Origin: Nocardioides panzhihuensis
Lineage (GTDB): Bacteria > Actinomycetota > Actinomycetes > Propionibacteriales > Nocardioidaceae
Length of the DNA: 64,000 nt
Reading direction: 5' to 3'
Assembly: GCF_013408335.1 (NCBI RefSeq)
Contig: NZ_JACBZR010000001.1
Location: 4,007,501-4,071,500 of the forward strand
This document shows positions 15,755 to 60,299 of the stretch, piece after piece. The position numbers and the translations under genes are program-made. A model generated the notes under the pieces. The model ran no database searches. It was not told the origin of the DNA and worked only from the letters and a program-made list of their open reading frames with translations. Each line of letters begins with the position of its first letter. Within the stretch, counting starts at the first letter, position 1.

Positions 15755-15860
15755 CCGACCAACCCACCAACCAGGAGCGACGGATCCGCCGCTCCCAAGC
15801 CCCCGCCCAACCCAAACCCCCGCGCCAAACCCCTGCCGCCGACCCGATAGCCAGCCAAAA

Positions 15861-15952
15861 TTCTCGGCGACGGCCGGTGTCAAGGATCGCCGCAGGCGAC
15901 CGGCGCCAGCCGGCGGCCGAAGGCCGTCCTTTACTCCGGACGCCGCCGAGAA
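15861..15952. repeat. Long imperfect inverted repeat (REP/BIME-like)
   Basis: The left arm begins TTCTCGGCGACGGCCGG and reads on to TCAAGGAT at 15886. The right arm, from GTCCTTTACTCCGG to CGCCGCCGAGAA at 15952, is its imperfect complement, with a small inner hairpin (GCCGGCG type) between them. Fold-back size is about 92 bp. It could be an interspersed repeat or a large terminator for adnB. Confidence 0.5.
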
Positions 15953-16026
15953 CACCCTCCCCGAAAGGGTCGGCGGCAAACCCCAACCACAAAACACAGC
16001 CCCTGACGCGCGCCGAAGAACCGGCG

Positions 16027-19000
16027 TCAGCCCCCACCCACGATCCTCTCCAACTTCTCCCGCCCAGGAAGACCGGAAGGCTCGACGAGCCGCCCAGAAC
16101 GCACGTAGTAGAAAGCCGCCCGAACCCGCGACAACGGCACCCCCATGAGCTCGGCCCACCCGAGCCGGTAGAGAGCCAGCTGAAGAGGGTCGGCGTTCTG
16201 GGTCTGGTTGGTCTTCCAGTCGATGATCAGGTACGTCCCATCGGGCTCCTGATAGACCGCGTCGATCCGGCCACGCACGACCTGACCTGCCAGGACGATC
16301 GCGAAGGCCGCCTCGACCCGGAACGGTGGCCGGTCGGCGAACGGACCCTTTTCGAAGGCGGCGATCACCTCCTCGAGACCGGACTCGTCCTCGATGCCGT
16401 GGTCGGCGCGACCAGGCAGGTCGTCGGGGTCGAAGAGGTCCTGCTGGCCGAAGCGGGCCTCGACCCAGGCGTGGAACCGGGTGCCGAAGCGGGCCTGGGA
16501 GGACGGCTTGCGGGGCATCGGACGGACCAGGTCGGCGGCGAAGCCGAGGGGATCGTCGCGCAGCTTGGACATGGCGGTGGCCGACAACGACGACGGCAGC
16601 GGAACGATCACCTCGGGGGCCCGCTCACGGGCCGCCTCGGCGAGCAGCCGCTCGATCTCCTCGTCCCACTGGTTCACGGTCTCGAGCAGGGTGAGATCGT
16701 CGAGCTCGTCCGGCCCGGGGCTGACCTCGCGGACCAACCTGGCCGCTTCCAGCCGGCGCTCCACCTCGGCCGTGTGGTGATTGATCGGCCAGGGCAGGTC
16801 GGGCTCCTGCGCGGCGTAGGGGCTCTCCTCCTCGCCTTTCACTACAACGTCCGCCCAGCGGTCGGGCTTGGCCCCCCACTGCAGCAGCGCCTCCCTGGTC
16901 TTCTCCACGTAGAGCGACGGGCCGCGGCCCTCCTTCAGGGAGGGCGACCAGCGCCAGCACGAGACGAACTGGACGTGGCGGGCTCGGGTCCAGGCGACGT
17001 ACGCCAGTCGGAGCTCCTCGACGCGCTCGTGCTCCTTGCGCTCGGCGAGAAGCTCGTCGATCGAGTCGGCGTCGTGGCCGTGGAGCTGCGGCAGATCGTC
17101 GCGGTCTCCGCGGAGCGCGGCGGGCATGACCGAGGGGACGGTCAGCCACGACGATCGCGTCTGGCCGGTGGGGAACTTCTTGTGGGTCACCCCGACCAGG
17201 AAGACGACGTCCCACTCCAAGCCCTTGGCGCGGTGGACGGTGAGCAGCTTGACCGAGTCGGCCTCCGACGGGGTGGCGACGTCGAGTCCCTGGCCGTATT
17301 CGTCCTCCGCCTCCAGGTAGGCCAGCAGCGCGGCCAGGGTGACCTGGCCGTCGAGACCTTCGAACTCGGCGACCGCCTGGACGAAGAGGTCGAGGTTGTC
17401 GCGCCGGGCAGAGGCCGCCGGGGAGACCGAGGCGGCCAGCTCGACGTCGATGCCGGTGACGTCGATGATCCGGCGGACCAGGTCGAGGAGCGGCTCGTTG
17501 ACCGCTCGGCGCAGCCCGCGGAGCTCATCGGCGAGCAGCTTGAAGCGCTCCCTGGCCTGCGGTGAGTAGTCGTAGTCGGAGGGGCCGCCGGGATCCTCCA
17601 GTGCATCGTTGAGCGAGGGGATCTCGGTGGGGTCGGTGCCTTGGACGGCCGCCTCCAGCTGCCGCTCGACATCGGCGAACTCCTCCGCGCCGCCGACGAC
17701 CCCGGCCAGGTCACGCGATCTGCGGCCGAGGATGGCGAGGTCACGGGGCCCGATCGCCCAGCGCGGGCCGGCGAGGAGGGTGAGCAGCGCGGAGTTGGCG
17801 GTGACGTCGTGGAGCAGCTCCATGGTGGCGACGACCTCGGCCACCTCGGGCAGTCGGAGCAGCCCCTTCAGACCGACGATCTCGACCGGGATCTCGCGAG
17901 CGGTGAGCGCGTCAAAGACCGCTGCCGCCTGCGAGTTGTCCCTGGTCAGCACGCCGATCTCCTTCCACTCCCCGACCGCCTCATGGGCCTCGATCACCTT
18001 GTCGGCGAGCCAGAGCAGCTCTTCGTCGTACGTCTCGTGGACATGCACCCGCACCTCACCGTCGCGCGCGCCCTCCGCAGCGACCAGCCGCTCCTTCTCG
18101 CGTCCCTCGTAGAGCTGGGCGGCCAGATGGTTGGCGGTGTCGAGGATGCGGGCGTCCGAGCGGCGGTTGACGGTCAGGGAGTACCCGGTGGTCGAGCTTG
18201 TCGAGACCCCCTTGGGAGGGAAGTCCCTGCCGAACTCGAGAATGTTGCTCACCGACGCACCCCGCCAGCCGTAGATCGCCTGGTTGGGGTCACCGACGGC
18301 GGTCACCGGATGCCCGTCGCCGAAGAGACGAGCGAGCATCTTGGCCTGGGCCACCGAGGTGTCCTGGTATTCGTCGAGCAGCACCACCTTGAACTTCCCA
18401 CGCTCGATCTCCGCGACCTCGGGGGTCTCCTCGGCCAGCCGGGCCGCGAGAGCGATCTGGTCGGAGAAGTCCATCAGCCCGAGCCGGTCCTTGAGGCGGC
18501 GGTAGCCGTCGACCAGATCGAGCAGCTCGTAGCGCTTGTCGATCGCGTCGATCGCCTTCTCGACCTTGTTCAGCTTCGTCTTGACCCGCTTCCCGTCGGC
18601 GAGCTGTGCCCTGAGATCAGCGACCTCGAGGGCGAACAACGCTCGCTCTTTGCGGTCGTAGGCACGCAGTGTGGCGGGTTCGACGAGGTGCTCGGACAGC
18701 TCGGAGTCGAGCGCGAGCAGCTGCTGGACGGCCAGCTTCGGGTAGTCGGTCAGCTTCTCCACCGGGTTGGTGTGCCGGGCCACGGCCCGAGCCGCGAGCT
18801 GGTAGCGGGTCGCATCGGCGATCAGCCGAGTGTCCGGCTCGTGCCCGATCCGCAGGCCGTGCTCGGAGAGCAGCCCGGAGGCGTAGGAGTGGTAGGTCGC
18901 CACCGTCGGCTCCGCGGGCTCCTCGCCCTCTTCCGACAGAGCCTCCCCGGGCCGCGGTGGACCTTCGCGTCGCTCGGGCCACAGTCCTGCCTTCTGCAGC

Positions 19001-19305
19001 GACTCCCGGATCCGGGTGGCCAGCTCGGCGGTCGCCTTCGTGGTGAAGGTCAGACCGAGCACCTCCCCGGGGAGCACGCGACCGGTGGCGACCAGCCAGA
19101 CGACTCGGGCGGCCATCACCGCGGTCTTGCCGGACCCGGCGCCGGCAATTACCACGGCGGGCTCCAGCGGAGCCGTGATCGCGCGGAACTGCTCCTCGCT
19201 GTAGAGCCAGTCGTGACCCATCAGCTTGGCGAGCTCTTCGGGGGTCTCGACCGTCATCACCGGGTTCATCTCGGGGTTCATCGCAGCGTTCATCTCTGGG
19301 TTCAC
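16027..19305 (-). CDS. adnB: AdnB subunit of the AdnAB ATP-dependent helicase-nuclease
   Basis: 1092 residues from GTG 19305, which overlaps the adnA stop by four bases (GTGA) and is preceded by the end of adnA. The UvrD-type motor is clear: motif I VVIAGAGSGKTAVMAARVVW, motif II VVLLDEYQDTSVAQAKML, motif IV LTVNRRSD, motif V-VI KGLEWDVVFLVGVTH and LAYVAWTRARHVQF. The C-terminal RecB-like nuclease shows RIDAVYQEPDGTYLIIDWKTNQT, the metal-binding Asp and the DWK motif. AdnAB resects double-strand breaks in mycobacteria in place of RecBCD. Short residues 367-373 (VSTSS) match the GTCTCGAC repeat, just before motif IV. The longer open frame upstream is adnA read in another frame. Confidence 0.92.
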   Translation of the reverse strand: MNPEMNAAMNPEMNPVMTVETPEELAKLMGHDWLYSEEQFRAITAPLEPAVVIAGAGSGKTAVMAARVVWLVATGRVLPGEVLGLTFTTKATAELATRIRESLQKAGLWPERREGPPRPGEALSEEGEEPAEPTVATYHSYASGLLSEHGLRIGHEPDTRLIADATRYQLAARAVARHTNPVEKLTDYPKLAVQQLLALDSELSEHLVEPATLRAYDRKERALFALEVADLRAQLADGKRVKTKLNKVEKAIDAIDKRYELLDLVDGYRRLKDRLGLMDFSDQIALAARLAEETPEVAEIERGKFKVVLLDEYQDTSVAQAKMLARLFGDGHPVTAVGDPNQAIYGWRGASVSNILEFGRDFPPKGVSTSSTTGYSLTVNRRSDARILDTANHLAAQLYEGREKERLVAAEGARDGEVRVHVHETYDEELLWLADKVIEAHEAVGEWKEIGVLTRDNSQAAAVFDALTAREIPVEIVGLKGLLRLPEVAEVVATMELLHDVTANSALLTLLAGPRWAIGPRDLAILGRRSRDLAGVVGGAEEFADVERQLEAAVQGTDPTEIPSLNDALEDPGGPSDYDYSPQARERFKLLADELRGLRRAVNEPLLDLVRRIIDVTGIDVELAASVSPAASARRDNLDLFVQAVAEFEGLDGQVTLAALLAYLEAEDEYGQGLDVATPSEADSVKLLTVHRAKGLEWDVVFLVGVTHKKFPTGQTRSSWLTVPSVMPAALRGDRDDLPQLHGHDADSIDELLAERKEHERVEELRLAYVAWTRARHVQFVSCWRWSPSLKEGRGPSLYVEKTREALLQWGAKPDRWADVVVKGEEESPYAAQEPDLPWPINHHTAEVERRLEAARLVREVSPGPDELDDLTLLETVNQWDEEIERLLAEAARERAPEVIVPLPSSLSATAMSKLRDDPLGFAADLVRPMPRKPSSQARFGTRFHAWVEARFGQQDLFDPDDLPGRADHGIEDESGLEEVIAAFEKGPFADRPPFRVEAAFAIVLAGQVVRGRIDAVYQEPDGTYLIIDWKTNQTQNADPLQLALYRLGWAELMGVPLSRVRAAFYYVRSGRLVEPSGLPGREKLERIVGGG
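18188..18208. repeat. GGTCGAGC/GTCTCGAC repeat copy inside adnB
   Basis: GTGGTCGAGCTTGTCGAGAC, a 20-bp copy of the repeat core, lies in frame in adnB (residues about 367-373, giving VSTSSTT). It sits between motif III and motif IV of the helicase. See the adnA copy for the full element. Confidence 0.6.
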
Positions 19306-22300
19306 GACAGCACCGACCCCGAGGTCTGCGCCGGGCAGAGCGCGACGAACTGACACCGGTCGCACTGCTTGCCCGGCCGTGCCACGAACTCCTCGGCCCG
19401 GACCGTCGCCACCGCCTTCTCCAGCTGGGTGATGATCTCGGGCGGCTCGGGTGCCTGCACCTGCACCTTCGGCAGCTCGCTCCCCGAACCCGCGGGATGG
19501 CGCAGCTGGATCAGCTCCGCTCCCCCGGAGGTCGCGTCCGGTGCCAGCGACGAGGCCGCGCCGTGCTCGACCGCCAGCTGGTAGAGGCCGAGCTGGCCGT
19601 GCTCCTTGACCTCCTGCGCGGTGGGCGGGTATTTCCCGGTCTTCAGGTCGACCACCACGATCCTTCCGCTCTCGTCGAGCTCCAACCGGTCCGCGTAGCC
19701 GTTGAGTCGCACCGTCTCCCCACTGGGAAGGGAGACCTTCGCGGTCAGCTGCTCCTCGAACCCGATCACGGTCCGCGCACCGGGGCGCCGGTGCCAGGTC
19801 AGGAATCGGGCCAGCACCTCGCGGACCGCCTCGCGCTCGCGGGCAGCCGACCAGGGCGTACGGAACTCGAGGCGGCCCCACACCTCGTCCACGAACGGCA
19901 TCAGGTCATCGACCGTGGCAGCGTCGAGGACGCCGCGGGCTAGCTGCTCGGCGATCGCGTGCACCACCTTGCCGAACCCCTGCGAGGAGGAGTCGGTGAC
20001 CGCACCGCCCGCCTCACGGGCCAGGAACCACTGCGCCGGGCAGGTCAGGATCGCCTCCAGCGCCGACGCGCTCAGCGTGATCGGACGGTCCTCGGGCCGG
20101 ACCGGAGCAGAGGCGTACGTCGGGGCCCGCAGCCCCCACCAGGTCGACGGGTCGGCGGCGAGCGCGATCCGCTTGCCGCGCACCTCGGTGGCGGCCAGCT
20201 TCTGCAGCCTTCTCGCGGCCGCCTCCCGCAGCGCGACCGGCTGAGCCGGATCTGCCGCGGTGCGGCGCAGCTCGGCGACCAGACCGGCCAGCGACAGCGG
20301 TCTCGTCGGCCGGCCGATCCGATGACGGATCTGGTCCTCGCGCAGGCCGAGCTCGTTGATGAACCGCGACGGCTGGTCACCGTCGTCGTCGGGCGACTTC
20401 ACCGCGGTCACTACCAGCCGGGACCGGGCTCGGGTGGCGGCGACGTAGAAGAGCCGGCGCTCCTCGGCGAGCATCGCCGAGCGGGTCAGTGGCGGCAGGC
20501 GCCCGCCGTGGCGACCGTCCGGCAGCGCCGGGGCGATCCGGTCGGGCCCGAGGAGCGAGTCGCGCCGGCGCAGGTCGGGCCAGGCGCCCTCCTGGACGTG
20601 AGCGACCACCACGAGACCCCACTCCAGCCCCTTGGAGCGATGGGCGGTGAGCAGCCGCACCGCCGAGCCCCGCACGCCCTTGTCGGCCAGGGTGTCGGCC
20701 GGGATCTCCTGGGCACGGAGCGTGGCCAGGAAGGTCTCCACCGAGGTGAACTCCTGCCGGCCCTCGATCTTGGCGGCGGTGTCGAACAGCGCCACGACCG
20801 CATCCAGGTCTCGATGGGCCAGCCGCGCCGCCGAGCCACCCGACTCGACCTGCGCCCGCAGCCGCTGCCCCCAATCGGCGCCCTCCCACAGGGTCCAGAG
20901 CACCTGCTCGGCGCCGGCACCGCCCGCCAGCACGCGGCGCGCCTCGGCGAGAAGGTCCGCAAGCCGGCGTACGCGCCCCAGCACCCGTTCCTCGCCCCCG
21001 CTGGTCGAGCCGCCCCCGCTGCTCGAGCCGCCCCCGCTGGTCGAGCCGGATTCGTGAGGTACGAACGAATCCGTGTCGAGACCAACACGGTCATCTGTCG
21101 CGCTCGATGGGATTGTGTTGGTCTCGACACCGGCTCGCTGGCGCTCGCCGGGCTCGACCAGCGGGAAGGCCTCGGGCTCGACCAGCGGCGAGGCAGCGGC
21201 CTCGACCAACGAGCCAGGATCGAGCACGGCGCGGCGTACGAGCTCGCTGGCAGACACGTCGAAAAACCTCGCCCTGAGCGTGCGAGTCAGCGCGCGGACG
21301 TCGGTCGCGTCGAGCCCGCCGAGCGGACCGGTGAGCAGCTCCTCGCAGCGCTCGGCGCGTACGTAGCGTTCATCGAGCTCCGACTCGACGGCGGCGTCGA
21401 CGACGATCCCGAGCGCGTCGAGGAGGACCGCGGCAGCCGGCTCGCGGACCAACGGGGTCTCGTCGGAGGCGACCTCGACCGGGACACCGGCTGCGGTCAG
21501 CGAACGGCGCAGCTGCGGGATCGAGGTGCGGCCCGAGCGCACCAGGACGGCCATGTCGGACCAGTCGATGCCGTCCTCGAGGTGAGCCCGGCGGAGCAGG
21601 TCGGCGATGTGCTCGGTCTCGGCCCGGTCGGTGTCGAAGGTGAGCACCTCGGCCCGTCCCGGGTCCTGGGCCAACGGGTGCGGGTTGCGGAAGGTGTCGT
21701 AGGCAGCGACCGGGATCGAGCCCCGCACCGAGATCCCTGCGGCGATCGACCGCGAGGTCCGCAGCAGCCGCGACCCGAACCGACGGGTCGTCCCCAGAGC
21801 CACCACCGGCGCATGCCGCCGTTCCCGGGTCGGGAACTGAGCCGGGAAGTCGAGGATCCCGTTGACGTCCGCGCCTCGGAAACCGTAGATGGACTGGTCC
21901 GGGTCGCCGACGACGATCAGGTCGCGGCCGTCGCCGGCCAGCGCCTGCAGCAGTGCGACCTGGCTCGGGTCGGTGTCTTGGTATTCGTCCACGAACACGC
22001 ACGTGAACTCGGCCCGGAGCTCGGCCGCATGCCGTTCGGCCTCGATCACCCCGCGCATGATCAGGTCGGGGTAGTCGATGGCCGACTGGGCGCCGAGCAC
22101 GTCGAGATACTGCTCCAGGAACCATCCGGCGGCGACGAACTCCTCGATCCCCTCGTCACGGCCGAGCGCCACCAGCTGGTCGGGATCGAGCCCGCGCTCG
22201 CGTGCCCGCGCGATCACGGTCTGCACCTCGCGCGCGAACCCGCGGGTGCCGACCGCCATCCGGAACCTCTCCGGCCATCGCACCGACTCCGGGTGCTCGG

Positions 22301-22709
22301 ACAGCAGCTCCTGCAGGACCACGTCGGCCTCGGGCGCGGAGAGCAGCGTCAGCGGCGCCGTGTAGAGCTCGGCCGGCGCATAGCGCCGCACCAGCCCGTA
22401 GGCGAAGGAGTGGAACGTCGAGGAGACCGCCCCCGAGAGGGTGCGCCCCAGCCGCGCCGTGACCCGGTCACGCAGCTGCTCGGCGGCCTTGCGGGAGAAG
22501 GTCAGCGCCAGCAGCTGGTCGGGCCGTACGCCGCGGTTCTCGATCCGGTCGACGACCGCCTCCACCAGCGTGGTCGTCTTGCCCGTCCCGGGCCCGGCCA
22601 GCACCAGGAGCGGCCCGCCGGGATGCTCCACCACCGAGCGCTGGTGCTCGTCGAGCACCGGCACGGCGGCTGCGCTCGGCGGCGGGGCTAGGCGGTAGGC
22701 GACACTCAC
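19302..22709 (-). CDS. adnA: AdnA subunit of the AdnAB ATP-dependent helicase-nuclease
   Basis: 1135 residues from GTG 22709 (MSVAYRLAPP). N-terminal motor with LLVLAGPGTGKTTTLVEAV, FVDEYQDTDPSQVALLQALA and FYVAATRARSRLVV. The C-terminal RecB-type nuclease has GYADRLELDESGRIVVVDLKTGKYP. Four cysteines, one in LTCPAQWF and three in QCDRCQFVALCP at the end, are arranged as in AddB/AdnA iron-sulfur staples. It pairs with AdnB downstream through a GTGA overlap. The striking oddity is residues about 517-570: a low-complexity Gly/Ser/Thr insert flanked by LVEP-type repeats that derives from a palindromic DNA repeat (21001-21161). The reading frame stays open through it, so the protein is likely still made. 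Confidence 0.92.
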   Translation of the reverse strand: MSVAYRLAPPPSAAAVPVLDEHQRSVVEHPGGPLLVLAGPGTGKTTTLVEAVVDRIENRGVRPDQLLALTFSRKAAEQLRDRVTARLGRTLSGAVSSTFHSFAYGLVRRYAPAELYTAPLTLLSAPEADVVLQELLSEHPESVRWPERFRMAVGTRGFAREVQTVIARARERGLDPDQLVALGRDEGIEEFVAAGWFLEQYLDVLGAQSAIDYPDLIMRGVIEAERHAAELRAEFTCVFVDEYQDTDPSQVALLQALAGDGRDLIVVGDPDQSIYGFRGADVNGILDFPAQFPTRERRHAPVVALGTTRRFGSRLLRTSRSIAAGISVRGSIPVAAYDTFRNPHPLAQDPGRAEVLTFDTDRAETEHIADLLRRAHLEDGIDWSDMAVLVRSGRTSIPQLRRSLTAAGVPVEVASDETPLVREPAAAVLLDALGIVVDAAVESELDERYVRAERCEELLTGPLGGLDATDVRALTRTLRARFFDVSASELVRRAVLDPGSLVEAAASPLVEPEAFPLVEPGERQRAGVETNTIPSSATDDRVGLDTDSFVPHESGSTSGGGSSSGGGSTSGGEERVLGRVRRLADLLAEARRVLAGGAGAEQVLWTLWEGADWGQRLRAQVESGGSAARLAHRDLDAVVALFDTAAKIEGRQEFTSVETFLATLRAQEIPADTLADKGVRGSAVRLLTAHRSKGLEWGLVVVAHVQEGAWPDLRRRDSLLGPDRIAPALPDGRHGGRLPPLTRSAMLAEERRLFYVAATRARSRLVVTAVKSPDDDGDQPSRFINELGLREDQIRHRIGRPTRPLSLAGLVAELRRTAADPAQPVALREAAARRLQKLAATEVRGKRIALAADPSTWWGLRAPTYASAPVRPEDRPITLSASALEAILTCPAQWFLAREAGGAVTDSSSQGFGKVVHAIAEQLARGVLDAATVDDLMPFVDEVWGRLEFRTPWSAAREREAVREVLARFLTWHRRPGARTVIGFEEQLTAKVSLPSGETVRLNGYADRLELDESGRIVVVDLKTGKYPPTAQEVKEHGQLGLYQLAVEHGAASSLAPDATSGGAELIQLRHPAGSGSELPKVQVQAPEPPEIITQLEKAVATVRAEEFVARPGKQCDRCQFVALCPAQTSGSVLS
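21001..21161. repeat. Full-length palindromic repeat inserted in frame in adnA
   Basis: Outer arms CTGGTCGAGC (21001-21010) and GCTCGACCAG (21152-21161) enclose 14-bp arms GTCGAGACCAACAC (21075-21088) and GTGTTGGTCTCGAC (21115-21128). The same nested plan occurs intergenically at 25261-25381. Extra CTGGTCGAGC copies stand next to it (21037 and about 21178-21210), encoding LVEP repeats in AdnA. A further 9-bp inverted repeat CGGATTCGT/ACGAATCCG lies inside. Confidence 0.85.
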
Positions 22710-25260: not shown

Positions 25261-25381
25261 CTGGTCGAGCCCCGCGAGCGCTAGCGAGCGGGAGCCGAGA
25301 CCAACACGATCCCATCGGCACTCGACAGGACCGTGTTGGTCTCGACACGCTCGGCCGCAGGCGGCCTCACGGCTCGACCAG
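25261..25381. repeat. Intergenic copy of the palindromic repeat
   Basis: CTGGTCGAGC (25261-25270) and GCTCGACCAG (25372-25381) are 10-bp outer arms; CGAGACCAACACG (25296-25308) and CGTGTTGGTCTCG (25332-25344) are 13-bp inner arms. Same nested plan and same core words as the in-frame copy in adnA. It lies between the ATL and protease genes and could fold into a large hairpin. Confidence 0.85.
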
Positions 25382-25389
25382 CAGTGTGC

Positions 25390-59245: not shown

Positions 59246-59266
59246 GTGGTCGAGCCTGTCGAGACC
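59246..59266. repeat. GGTCGAGC/GTCTCGAC repeat core beside hpf
   Basis: GTGGTCGAGCCTGTCGAGACC directly abuts the hpf stop codon (59267-59269). Same word as in adnB and mch. Here it is intergenic and may form part of the hpf terminator region. Confidence 0.7.
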
Positions 59267-59908: not shown

Positions 59909-60299
59909 GGGTACCTCCCGGTGTTTCGGGGTTGGCGGATTCCCGGACGATCAGCGCATGTGACCGCCGGGGTACGGAGCCCGCCTGGCCGACCTGGTCT
60001 TCGACCCCACAATCGCCTGCTGAGGCTTAGCAGCTTGGTGCCACTCCACCTTCTCCTTGCCGGTTCCCGTATCTGACAGGAGGGCAAGGGCAGGACTCAT
60101 CTCTAAGCCGCACCGTGATCCCCTTGCCCCAAAATCTGGGTGCAGAGGGTTACGTGGACCGTTTCGCCTGCGACTGGCATCGGCTTGCCGCTCGGATGCC
60201 CGCGATGCGGACTTCTCTGCGACGCAACCACGGACCCAGGCGGACTCCATGTAGTGACGGTAGTTCGCCGATGTGTCCCACGAAAGCCCTTCAACAGAA
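59909..60299. other. Intergenic region upstream of hpf
   Basis: About 390 bp on the minus strand between comFC and hpf. It should contain the hpf promoter. I see an imperfect CTGCT...AGCAG inverted repeat (60018-60034) and GGGTACC-type sequence before the start, but no gene and no clear -35/-10 pair. Confidence 0.45.

Follow-up and report, generated by a model that had tools for sequence, protein, structure and literature searches.

A modular palindromic repeat family with in-frame copies inside genes of Nocardioides panzhihuensis

The adnA locus

The window analysed here, a stretch of 64,000 nucleotides (64 kb) from Nocardioides panzhihuensis, contains the gene adnA with a palindromic element inside its reading frame, together with further copies of the same repeat:

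19302-22709, minus strand: adnA, intact open reading frame of 1135 amino acids; Pfam domains UvrD-type helicase N (residues 19-293), UvrD_C (633-771) and PDDEXK nuclease (878-1126)
21001-21036: two additional 18-bp tandem repeats of the outer arm, coding on the minus strand for some of the Gly/Ser/Thr stretch
21037-21161, no strand assigned: full palindromic element in adnA
21037-21047, partner at 21151-21161: outer arm CTGGTCGAGCC
21048-21072: left hairpin module
21073-21088 and 21115-21130: inner arms GTGTCGAGACCAACAC and GTGTTGGTCTCGACAC
21089-21114: spacer
21131-21150: right hairpin module
21162-21205, limits approximate: degenerate outer-arm copies, the LVE/LVEP stretch in minus-strand coding
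25261-25382: intergenic full element with other hairpin modules
18190-18208 (wider limits 18185-18213), minus strand: short form GGTCGAGCTTGTCGAGACC in adnB, in frame, encoding VSTSST in the loop FPPKGVSTSSTTGYSLTVNRRS
59248-59266: short form, overlapped by open reading frames of 220-333 amino acids

AdnA possesses both UvrD helicase domains, N and C, and a PD-(D/E)XK nuclease domain, and lies adjacent to a second UvrD-like gene (adnB); its top solved relatives are 7sjr_A and 6ppj_A, and the helicase-nuclease pair is presumably AdnAB. The insert lies within residues 498-572, between the UvrD-type helicase N and UvrD_C domains, and reads as a linker-like peptide, GRAASASERVETNTV...VGLDTPPPSGSGGSTSG. 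The frame is open across the element, as the original prediction for this locus had held. The in-frame low-complexity stretch that it placed at residues 517-570 is present but longer, as residues 498-572 differ from an insert-free relative (75 residues against 11). In the AlphaFold model of AdnA, a poor one (mean 60.5, 16 sequences), residues 503-571 form one unstructured stretch between two helices with pLDDT of about 24-38. In 7sjr_A, the best-scoring solved relative, the stretch between two aligned segments measures 31 residues, against 98 in AdnA.

The nested palindromic arms proposed for adnA are real, and so is their recurrence at 25261. The CTGGTCGAGC at 21001, which had been taken for the outer arm, opens a series of three 18-bp tandem copies, whose number varies between species; the outer arm beside the hairpin is the one at 21037-21047. 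Tandem 18- and 24-bp copies are found on both flanks of the palindrome. Both outer arms of the adnA copy, and its right inner arm, return in the intergenic copy, where the left inner arm has changed (GAGCCGAGACCAACAC). The two copies have unlike hairpin segments between their outer and inner arms, and therefore the recurrence concerns the arms and not the whole 161 bp. Both window palindromes fold strongly (adnA copy: z = -6.5, with 0 of 200 shuffles as good). A search of the 64-kb window against Rfam at the gathering threshold gave a raiA RNA motif as sole match (59980-60244, minus strand, 135 bits) and none for the palindrome. The window also contains, at 15822-15977, a copy of a palindromic stretch of about 155 bp that is likewise found near the ends of DUF222-HNH repeat units.

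A dispersed, modular repeat family

The original prediction depended on the repeat recurring elsewhere in the genome, and the exact inner arm GTGTTGGTCTCGAC occurs 129 times (62 + 67) in the 6.3-Mb N. panzhihuensis genome, against 0 in the reversed control. Complete palindromes with exact arms and a permitted spacer of 3-26 bases number 30 genome-wide, with spacers of 11 to 26 bp (control 0). The adnA palindrome is thus a member of a dispersed repeat family, beyond chance. Arms were grouped into 73 clusters, covering 100 of the 129 arm places: 46 are single half units, 22 are head-to-head, 4 tail-to-tail and 1 direct. BIMEs consist of REP palindromes, single or as inverted pairs, and the 73 clusters show this pattern of a high-copy, short imperfect palindrome. 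The outer arms form terminal inverted repeats, as in MITEs.

In 1.64 Mb of sequence, a single rule fits the copies: a half unit of about 50 bp consists of GTGTTGGTCTCGACAC, a hairpin module and GGCTCGACCAGC. With relaxed arms, 53 half units are found (reversed control 0). At least four types of hairpin module occur, themselves inverted repeats; examples are CCTCCGCCTAGCGGCTCCGG, CTCGCTGGCGCTCG, CTCGGCCGCAGGCGGCCTC and GGATTCGTTCGTACCTCACGAATCC. The full element, about 125 bp long, is a head-to-head pair of half units separated by a spacer, usually of 25-26 bp. Half units end in GTGTTGGTC / GACCAGC, with no GTAG/CGTC tag visible by eye. The short form, GGTCTCGACANGCTCGACC, has no module and is a REP-like imperfect palindrome. 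Genic and other copies were compared in two features. The inner length is 54 nt in all four genic full elements and in 9 of the 18 remaining ones, with 53, 43 and 39 as the other values, an association that is suggestive only. Among single half units, 6 of 7 genic ones are open in all six frames vs 4 of 39 others; the commonest module, however, carries CTAG and is frequent upstream of DUF222 genes.

The AdnA insert might instead be an ordinary low-complexity linker expansion, produced by slippage in a GC-rich minisatellite, with its likeness to other sites due to convergence. In its favour are the tandem copies flanking the adnA palindrome and the addition of eight-residue GSTSGATG repeats to ThiD of N. 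panzhihuensis only. However, the 14-16-bp arms of the core are common to dozens of unlinked sites with none in the reversed control, the same core lies in unrelated genes and between genes, and the palindromic order of modules is left unexplained. Slippage would account for the flanking growth only, and as an origin of the insert it is highly improbable.

Copies inside other genes

According to a codon-usage test, 12 of the 73 clusters are genic and in frame, in 11 unrelated protein genes; the calls come from a home-made, threshold-dependent codon score, a stricter first version of which gave 4 of 36 N. panzhihuensis clusters as genic and missed AdnA. The genes, with names that we take from Pfam matches and general knowledge, are CobN, CobB-CobC (two copies), CobL, CobI-CobJ, a Fer2/FAD/NAD-FCD-SDR fusion, AdnA, FbiC, ThiO, ThiD, an MFS transporter and CoxG. 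A further copy, in a Mg-chelatase-like protein, was found by motif search. Pfam domains stand on both sides of the insert, or before it, in AdnA, CobL, CobI-CobJ, the FCD/SDR fusion, FbiC, both CobB-CobC sites and CoxG, the placement in FbiC and CobI-CobJ leaving aside the position of the second stretch of a repeated domain. Because 4 of the 12 genic copies fall within one Pfam domain (CobN, ThiO, ThiD and MFS), location between domains is a tendency. Among the short forms in 1.64 Mb, 9 of 30 are genic and in frame; some of these, such as those encoding GLDELD, may be chance codon strings.

The cobalamin region at around 3.61-3.64 Mb (G000:C1 3606000-3645000) is a hot spot, with six coding insertions in five genes, and the corresponding region of genome G001 has copies at corresponding places. 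The thiamine genes thiO and thiD, close to each other (L180, 3288-4373 and 6044-7066) contain one in-frame copy each.

The remaining 61 of the 73 clusters were not called genic by the codon-usage test, and the copy at 999057, in an intergenic locus, starts about 10 bp past a stop codon. These locations, with the strong folding of both window copies, would suit a palindrome kept as DNA or RNA (a terminator, attenuator or processing site), its coding being a by-product. Yet a terminator inside genes would be harmful, modules and spacers are variable, and in-gene lengths are codon multiples. Moreover, at least two of the 61 are in-frame C-terminal extensions, which are found at 365193 and 3612939 and probably at 1072002. 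Such a role is considered unlikely.

Filled and empty alleles

AdnA shares best-segment identities of 92-96% with homologs from N. albus, N. luteus (two strains), N. turkmenicus, Nocardioides sp. YR527 and MAG-46, and for this reason N. panzhihuensis belongs with the N. albus/luteus group. The possibility that most AdnA orthologues share the insert is contradicted by the alignment: the insert is found in 9 of 45 informative rows (7 genomes, all of the N. albus/luteus group) and is absent in 36, including N. luteus JCM 3358. Rows L002/L112 and L004/L114 were each counted as the same genome; L027 and L129 (score below cut) and L025 and L125 (region missing) were left out. AdnA of N. luteus JCM 3358 (L117), with about 94% protein identity, reads VLDHTLLDEEEAADEERVLG at this position, with no insert. 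A tree built on 5368 ungapped columns from the adnA surroundings and including two outgroups places this strain as the first branch (support 0.99), and all seven other clade members carry the insert. The adnA insert is best read as one gain after the split of N. luteus JCM 3358, for which a single gain would be enough. The seven insert alleles exceed the empty allele by 192, 150, 108, 144, 129, 114 and 171 nt, all multiples of three. At the level of the reading frame this comparison supports the proposal that the element adds peptide to AdnA, except that some of the additional residues stem from the outer arm having grown locally in tandem.

Orthologous copies differ in their modules. The right module in adnA is GGATTCG... 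in G001, N. luteus BAFB, YR527, N. panzhihuensis and MAG-46, and CCTCCGCC... in N. turkmenicus and N. albus; the left modules vary between alleles too, and the distribution of modules is discordant with the tree. At the intergenic 999057 locus, modules likewise differ between N. panzhihuensis, YR527 and N. turkmenicus. Because modules at orthologous adnA and 999057 copies differ, we infer exchange between copies. At the 999057 place, N. albus (L280) has other repeats (GGTCGGCCGAGACGTC-like motifs) instead of the palindrome.

Filled and empty sites are also found elsewhere. FbiC, ThiD and CobL were compared in a set that N. luteus JCM 3358 stands outside, and rows without an anchor match (FbiC, G008 and G010; CobL, N. 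turkmenicus and several outgroups; ThiD, three outgroups) were left out. Among the seven clade genomes compared for FbiC, the full element is found in N. panzhihuensis, MAG-46 and N. albus, the site is empty (APAVLHAEG) in N. turkmenicus, YR527 and G001, and in N. luteus BAFB this linker contains, in frame, the short form GGTGGTCTCGACAAGCTCGACCACC. ThiD is filled by a full element in N. panzhihuensis and MAG-46, holds a remnant in N. albus and 15 extra bases in G001, and is empty in BAFB, YR527 and N. turkmenicus. CobL is filled in N. panzhihuensis, MAG-46 and N. albus, with a doubled half unit in G001, and is empty in BAFB and YR527; the N. turkmenicus site, with two matches 9 bases apart and no stop, is probably empty. 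Because CobL is filled in G001 and the albus subgroup and not in BAFB or YR527, its pattern would require loss, transfer or a second insertion.

In the window, the 25261 site has the full element in N. panzhihuensis and MAG-46, a short palindrome of about 45 bp in N. albus and N. luteus JCM 3358, and no palindrome in BAFB, YR527, N. turkmenicus and G001. In the AdnB loop, N. panzhihuensis has the short form (FPPKGVSTSSTTGYSL), MAG-46 a version that differs by a base change, and N. luteus JCM 3358 one that has grown in tandem; five other clade genomes are FPTKDGRRPSYSL-like. For AdnB and FbiC, either the same loop or linker would have been hit more than once, or a lost state would be hidden. 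The claim that the repeat moves or spreads into genes thus holds for insertion in the past, by the comparison of filled and empty sites; no mobilising enzyme was found.

Distribution and earlier descriptions

The long-form arm is present in 50 of 118 genus genomes, with 6-199 copies in 8 genomes and 0-3 in the other 110. The short form has a patchy distribution in 66 of 118, with up to 148 copies (control 0). Neither a blastn search of phage and plasmid records with the intergenic copy as query nor an exact-pattern search of viral contigs gave a match.

Five arm and short-form strings were absent from a full-text search of mostly open-access papers, and among the matches listed for Nocardioides or actinobacteria with repeats no description of this family was found. 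The available text of PMC3733652 contains 0 occurrences of words starting with nocardio or actinobact. The original prediction had raised the possibility of an undescribed family; as a kind of element, however, it is known, since palindromes within coding sequence and REPs inside genes, repair genes included, have been published (PMC2229807, PMC3733652).

Search for a mover

No Y1/RAYT transposase (PF01797) was found in any of 118 genus genomes, a search whose control was positive in 5 of 14 known genomes, and RAYT/IS200-type mobilisation was rejected on this ground. Target-site duplications are not visible at AdnA, FbiC, ThiD, CobL, AdnB or 25261, sites whose empty alleles have diverged, apparently with replacement of some target bases. 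A hairpin at the target site finds no support as a general rule: among 14 empty alleles of five genes, arms of at least 7 bp occur in two AdnB alleles only and none of at least 4 in the AdnA allele. The AdnB arms, 9 and 7 bp, were reached by 0.4% and 2.5% of 4000 random windows, the target windows having been chosen after the fact.

The sole candidate met, outside any systematic search, for an autonomous parent with the same ends is the DUF222-HNH unit, which we take to be the REP13E12 or 13E12 repeat. The palindromes might be non-autonomous ends moved by such elements in the role of RAYT. In 1.64 Mb, 9 of 12 DUF222-HNH open reading frames have a half unit 227-390 bp upstream (L037, L039, L043, L050, L051, L065, L083, L099 and L104). 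The remaining three include a second fragment of a gene already counted and one frame with a half unit farther upstream, beyond a reading frame judged transposase-like by eye. Repeat homology between these loci starts near the half unit, and several of the genes are preceded by CTGGTCGAG/GTCGAGACC motif arrays. Against this, GGTCTCGAC is absent on both strands from 1.1 kb around and above each start at 16 DUF222 loci of eleven other genus genomes, two of these loci coming from genomes rich in the long form. DUF222 is present in 117 of 118 genomes (at most 17 candidates scored per genome), but the long element in few, and hitchhiking with a duplicated gene explains the association. Mobilisation by DUF222-HNH elements is quite improbable, more so than a DNA or RNA role.

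Proposed origin and spread

The palindromes are very probably a dispersed, selfish or near-neutral family of the BIME/RPE type that inserts in frame in linkers and loops. Its basic unit would be the short REP-like imperfect palindrome; the short form appears to be the older and the long form to have grown from it. Within the N. albus/luteus group, one of several hairpin modules would occupy the palindrome's loop, giving the half unit, and a head-to-head pair of half units around a spacer would give the full element. Copies would then reach new sites, mostly intergenic, by an enzyme or recombination route other than RAYT. Where a copy lands in a linker or surface loop with the frame kept, it would be tolerated and translated as a Gly/Ser/Thr/Pro-rich insert, while frame-breaking insertions would be lost; judging from sequence, the insert peptide is presumably made, and tolerated through its flexibility. 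Later on, the outer arm may grow in tandem, internal stretches may be lost and modules may be exchanged, the frame being kept in every gene allele compared; modules would move by conversion between copies via the shared arms. Dispersion, filled and empty sites, frame conservation and module differences between orthologous copies are the observed parts of this scheme.

A bolder reading, to which we give somewhat less than even weight, is of a modular coding palindrome that spreads without a REP-associated transposase and rewrites protein linkers. It would combine the module swaps between orthologous copies at AdnA and 999057, renewed hits on one linker in separate lineages (AdnB and FbiC), and element-derived linkers in much of one cofactor pathway (CobN, CobB-CobC, CobL, CobI-CobJ and the Mg-chelatase).

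Comparison with known systems

RPEs are the best-known coding palindromes, and intragenic REPs occur in other bacteria; the present case is in free-living, cultivable actinobacteria. Its insertions are dated, named sister strains carry the empty alleles, and its forms run from short palindrome to full element, which makes testable the entry of a palindrome into an enzyme gene, the effect of a linker on the enzyme and a mover without RAYT.

As the original prediction proposed, the family resembles the Rickettsia palindromic elements, with in-frame copies in unrelated conserved genes. According to the available text of PMC2229807 and PMC10969869, RPEs are palindromes of about 100-150 bp, partly intergenic and partly in frame in unrelated conserved genes of Rickettsia, with a recurrent peptide, and other MITEs are fused to open reading frames. 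The likeness is one of behaviour, and architecture and host differ: the Nocardioides host is a free-living, high-GC actinobacterium, the element is modular with two half units and exchangeable hairpins, and its peptide is a Gly/Ser/Thr/Pro linker. REPs are also short imperfect palindromes, mostly intergenic, with some in open reading frames; intragenic GTAG/CGTC REPs are reported, many of them in DNA-repair genes (PMC3733652). Unlike REPs and BIMEs, the Nocardioides unit ends lack the GTAG/CGTC tag (by eye), the 118 genus genomes have no Y1/RAYT gene, and hairpins in the loop can replace one another. Bacterial MITEs (Correia/NEMIS, ERIC, RUP) are likewise small non-autonomous inverted-repeat elements, some of them fused in frame to genes (PMC2229807, available text), whereas for the Nocardioides family no target-site duplication was visible at the diverged sites compared and no parent transposon was found. 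The 13E12 (DUF222-HNH) genes are repeated in N. panzhihuensis, most of those examined with an upstream half unit, but this association is absent at the 16 DUF222 loci of other genus genomes. Palindromes in coding sequence and REPs within genes are already known, and the Nocardioides family is a further variety of them, with apparent module swapping between orthologous copies and no RAYT in 118 genomes.
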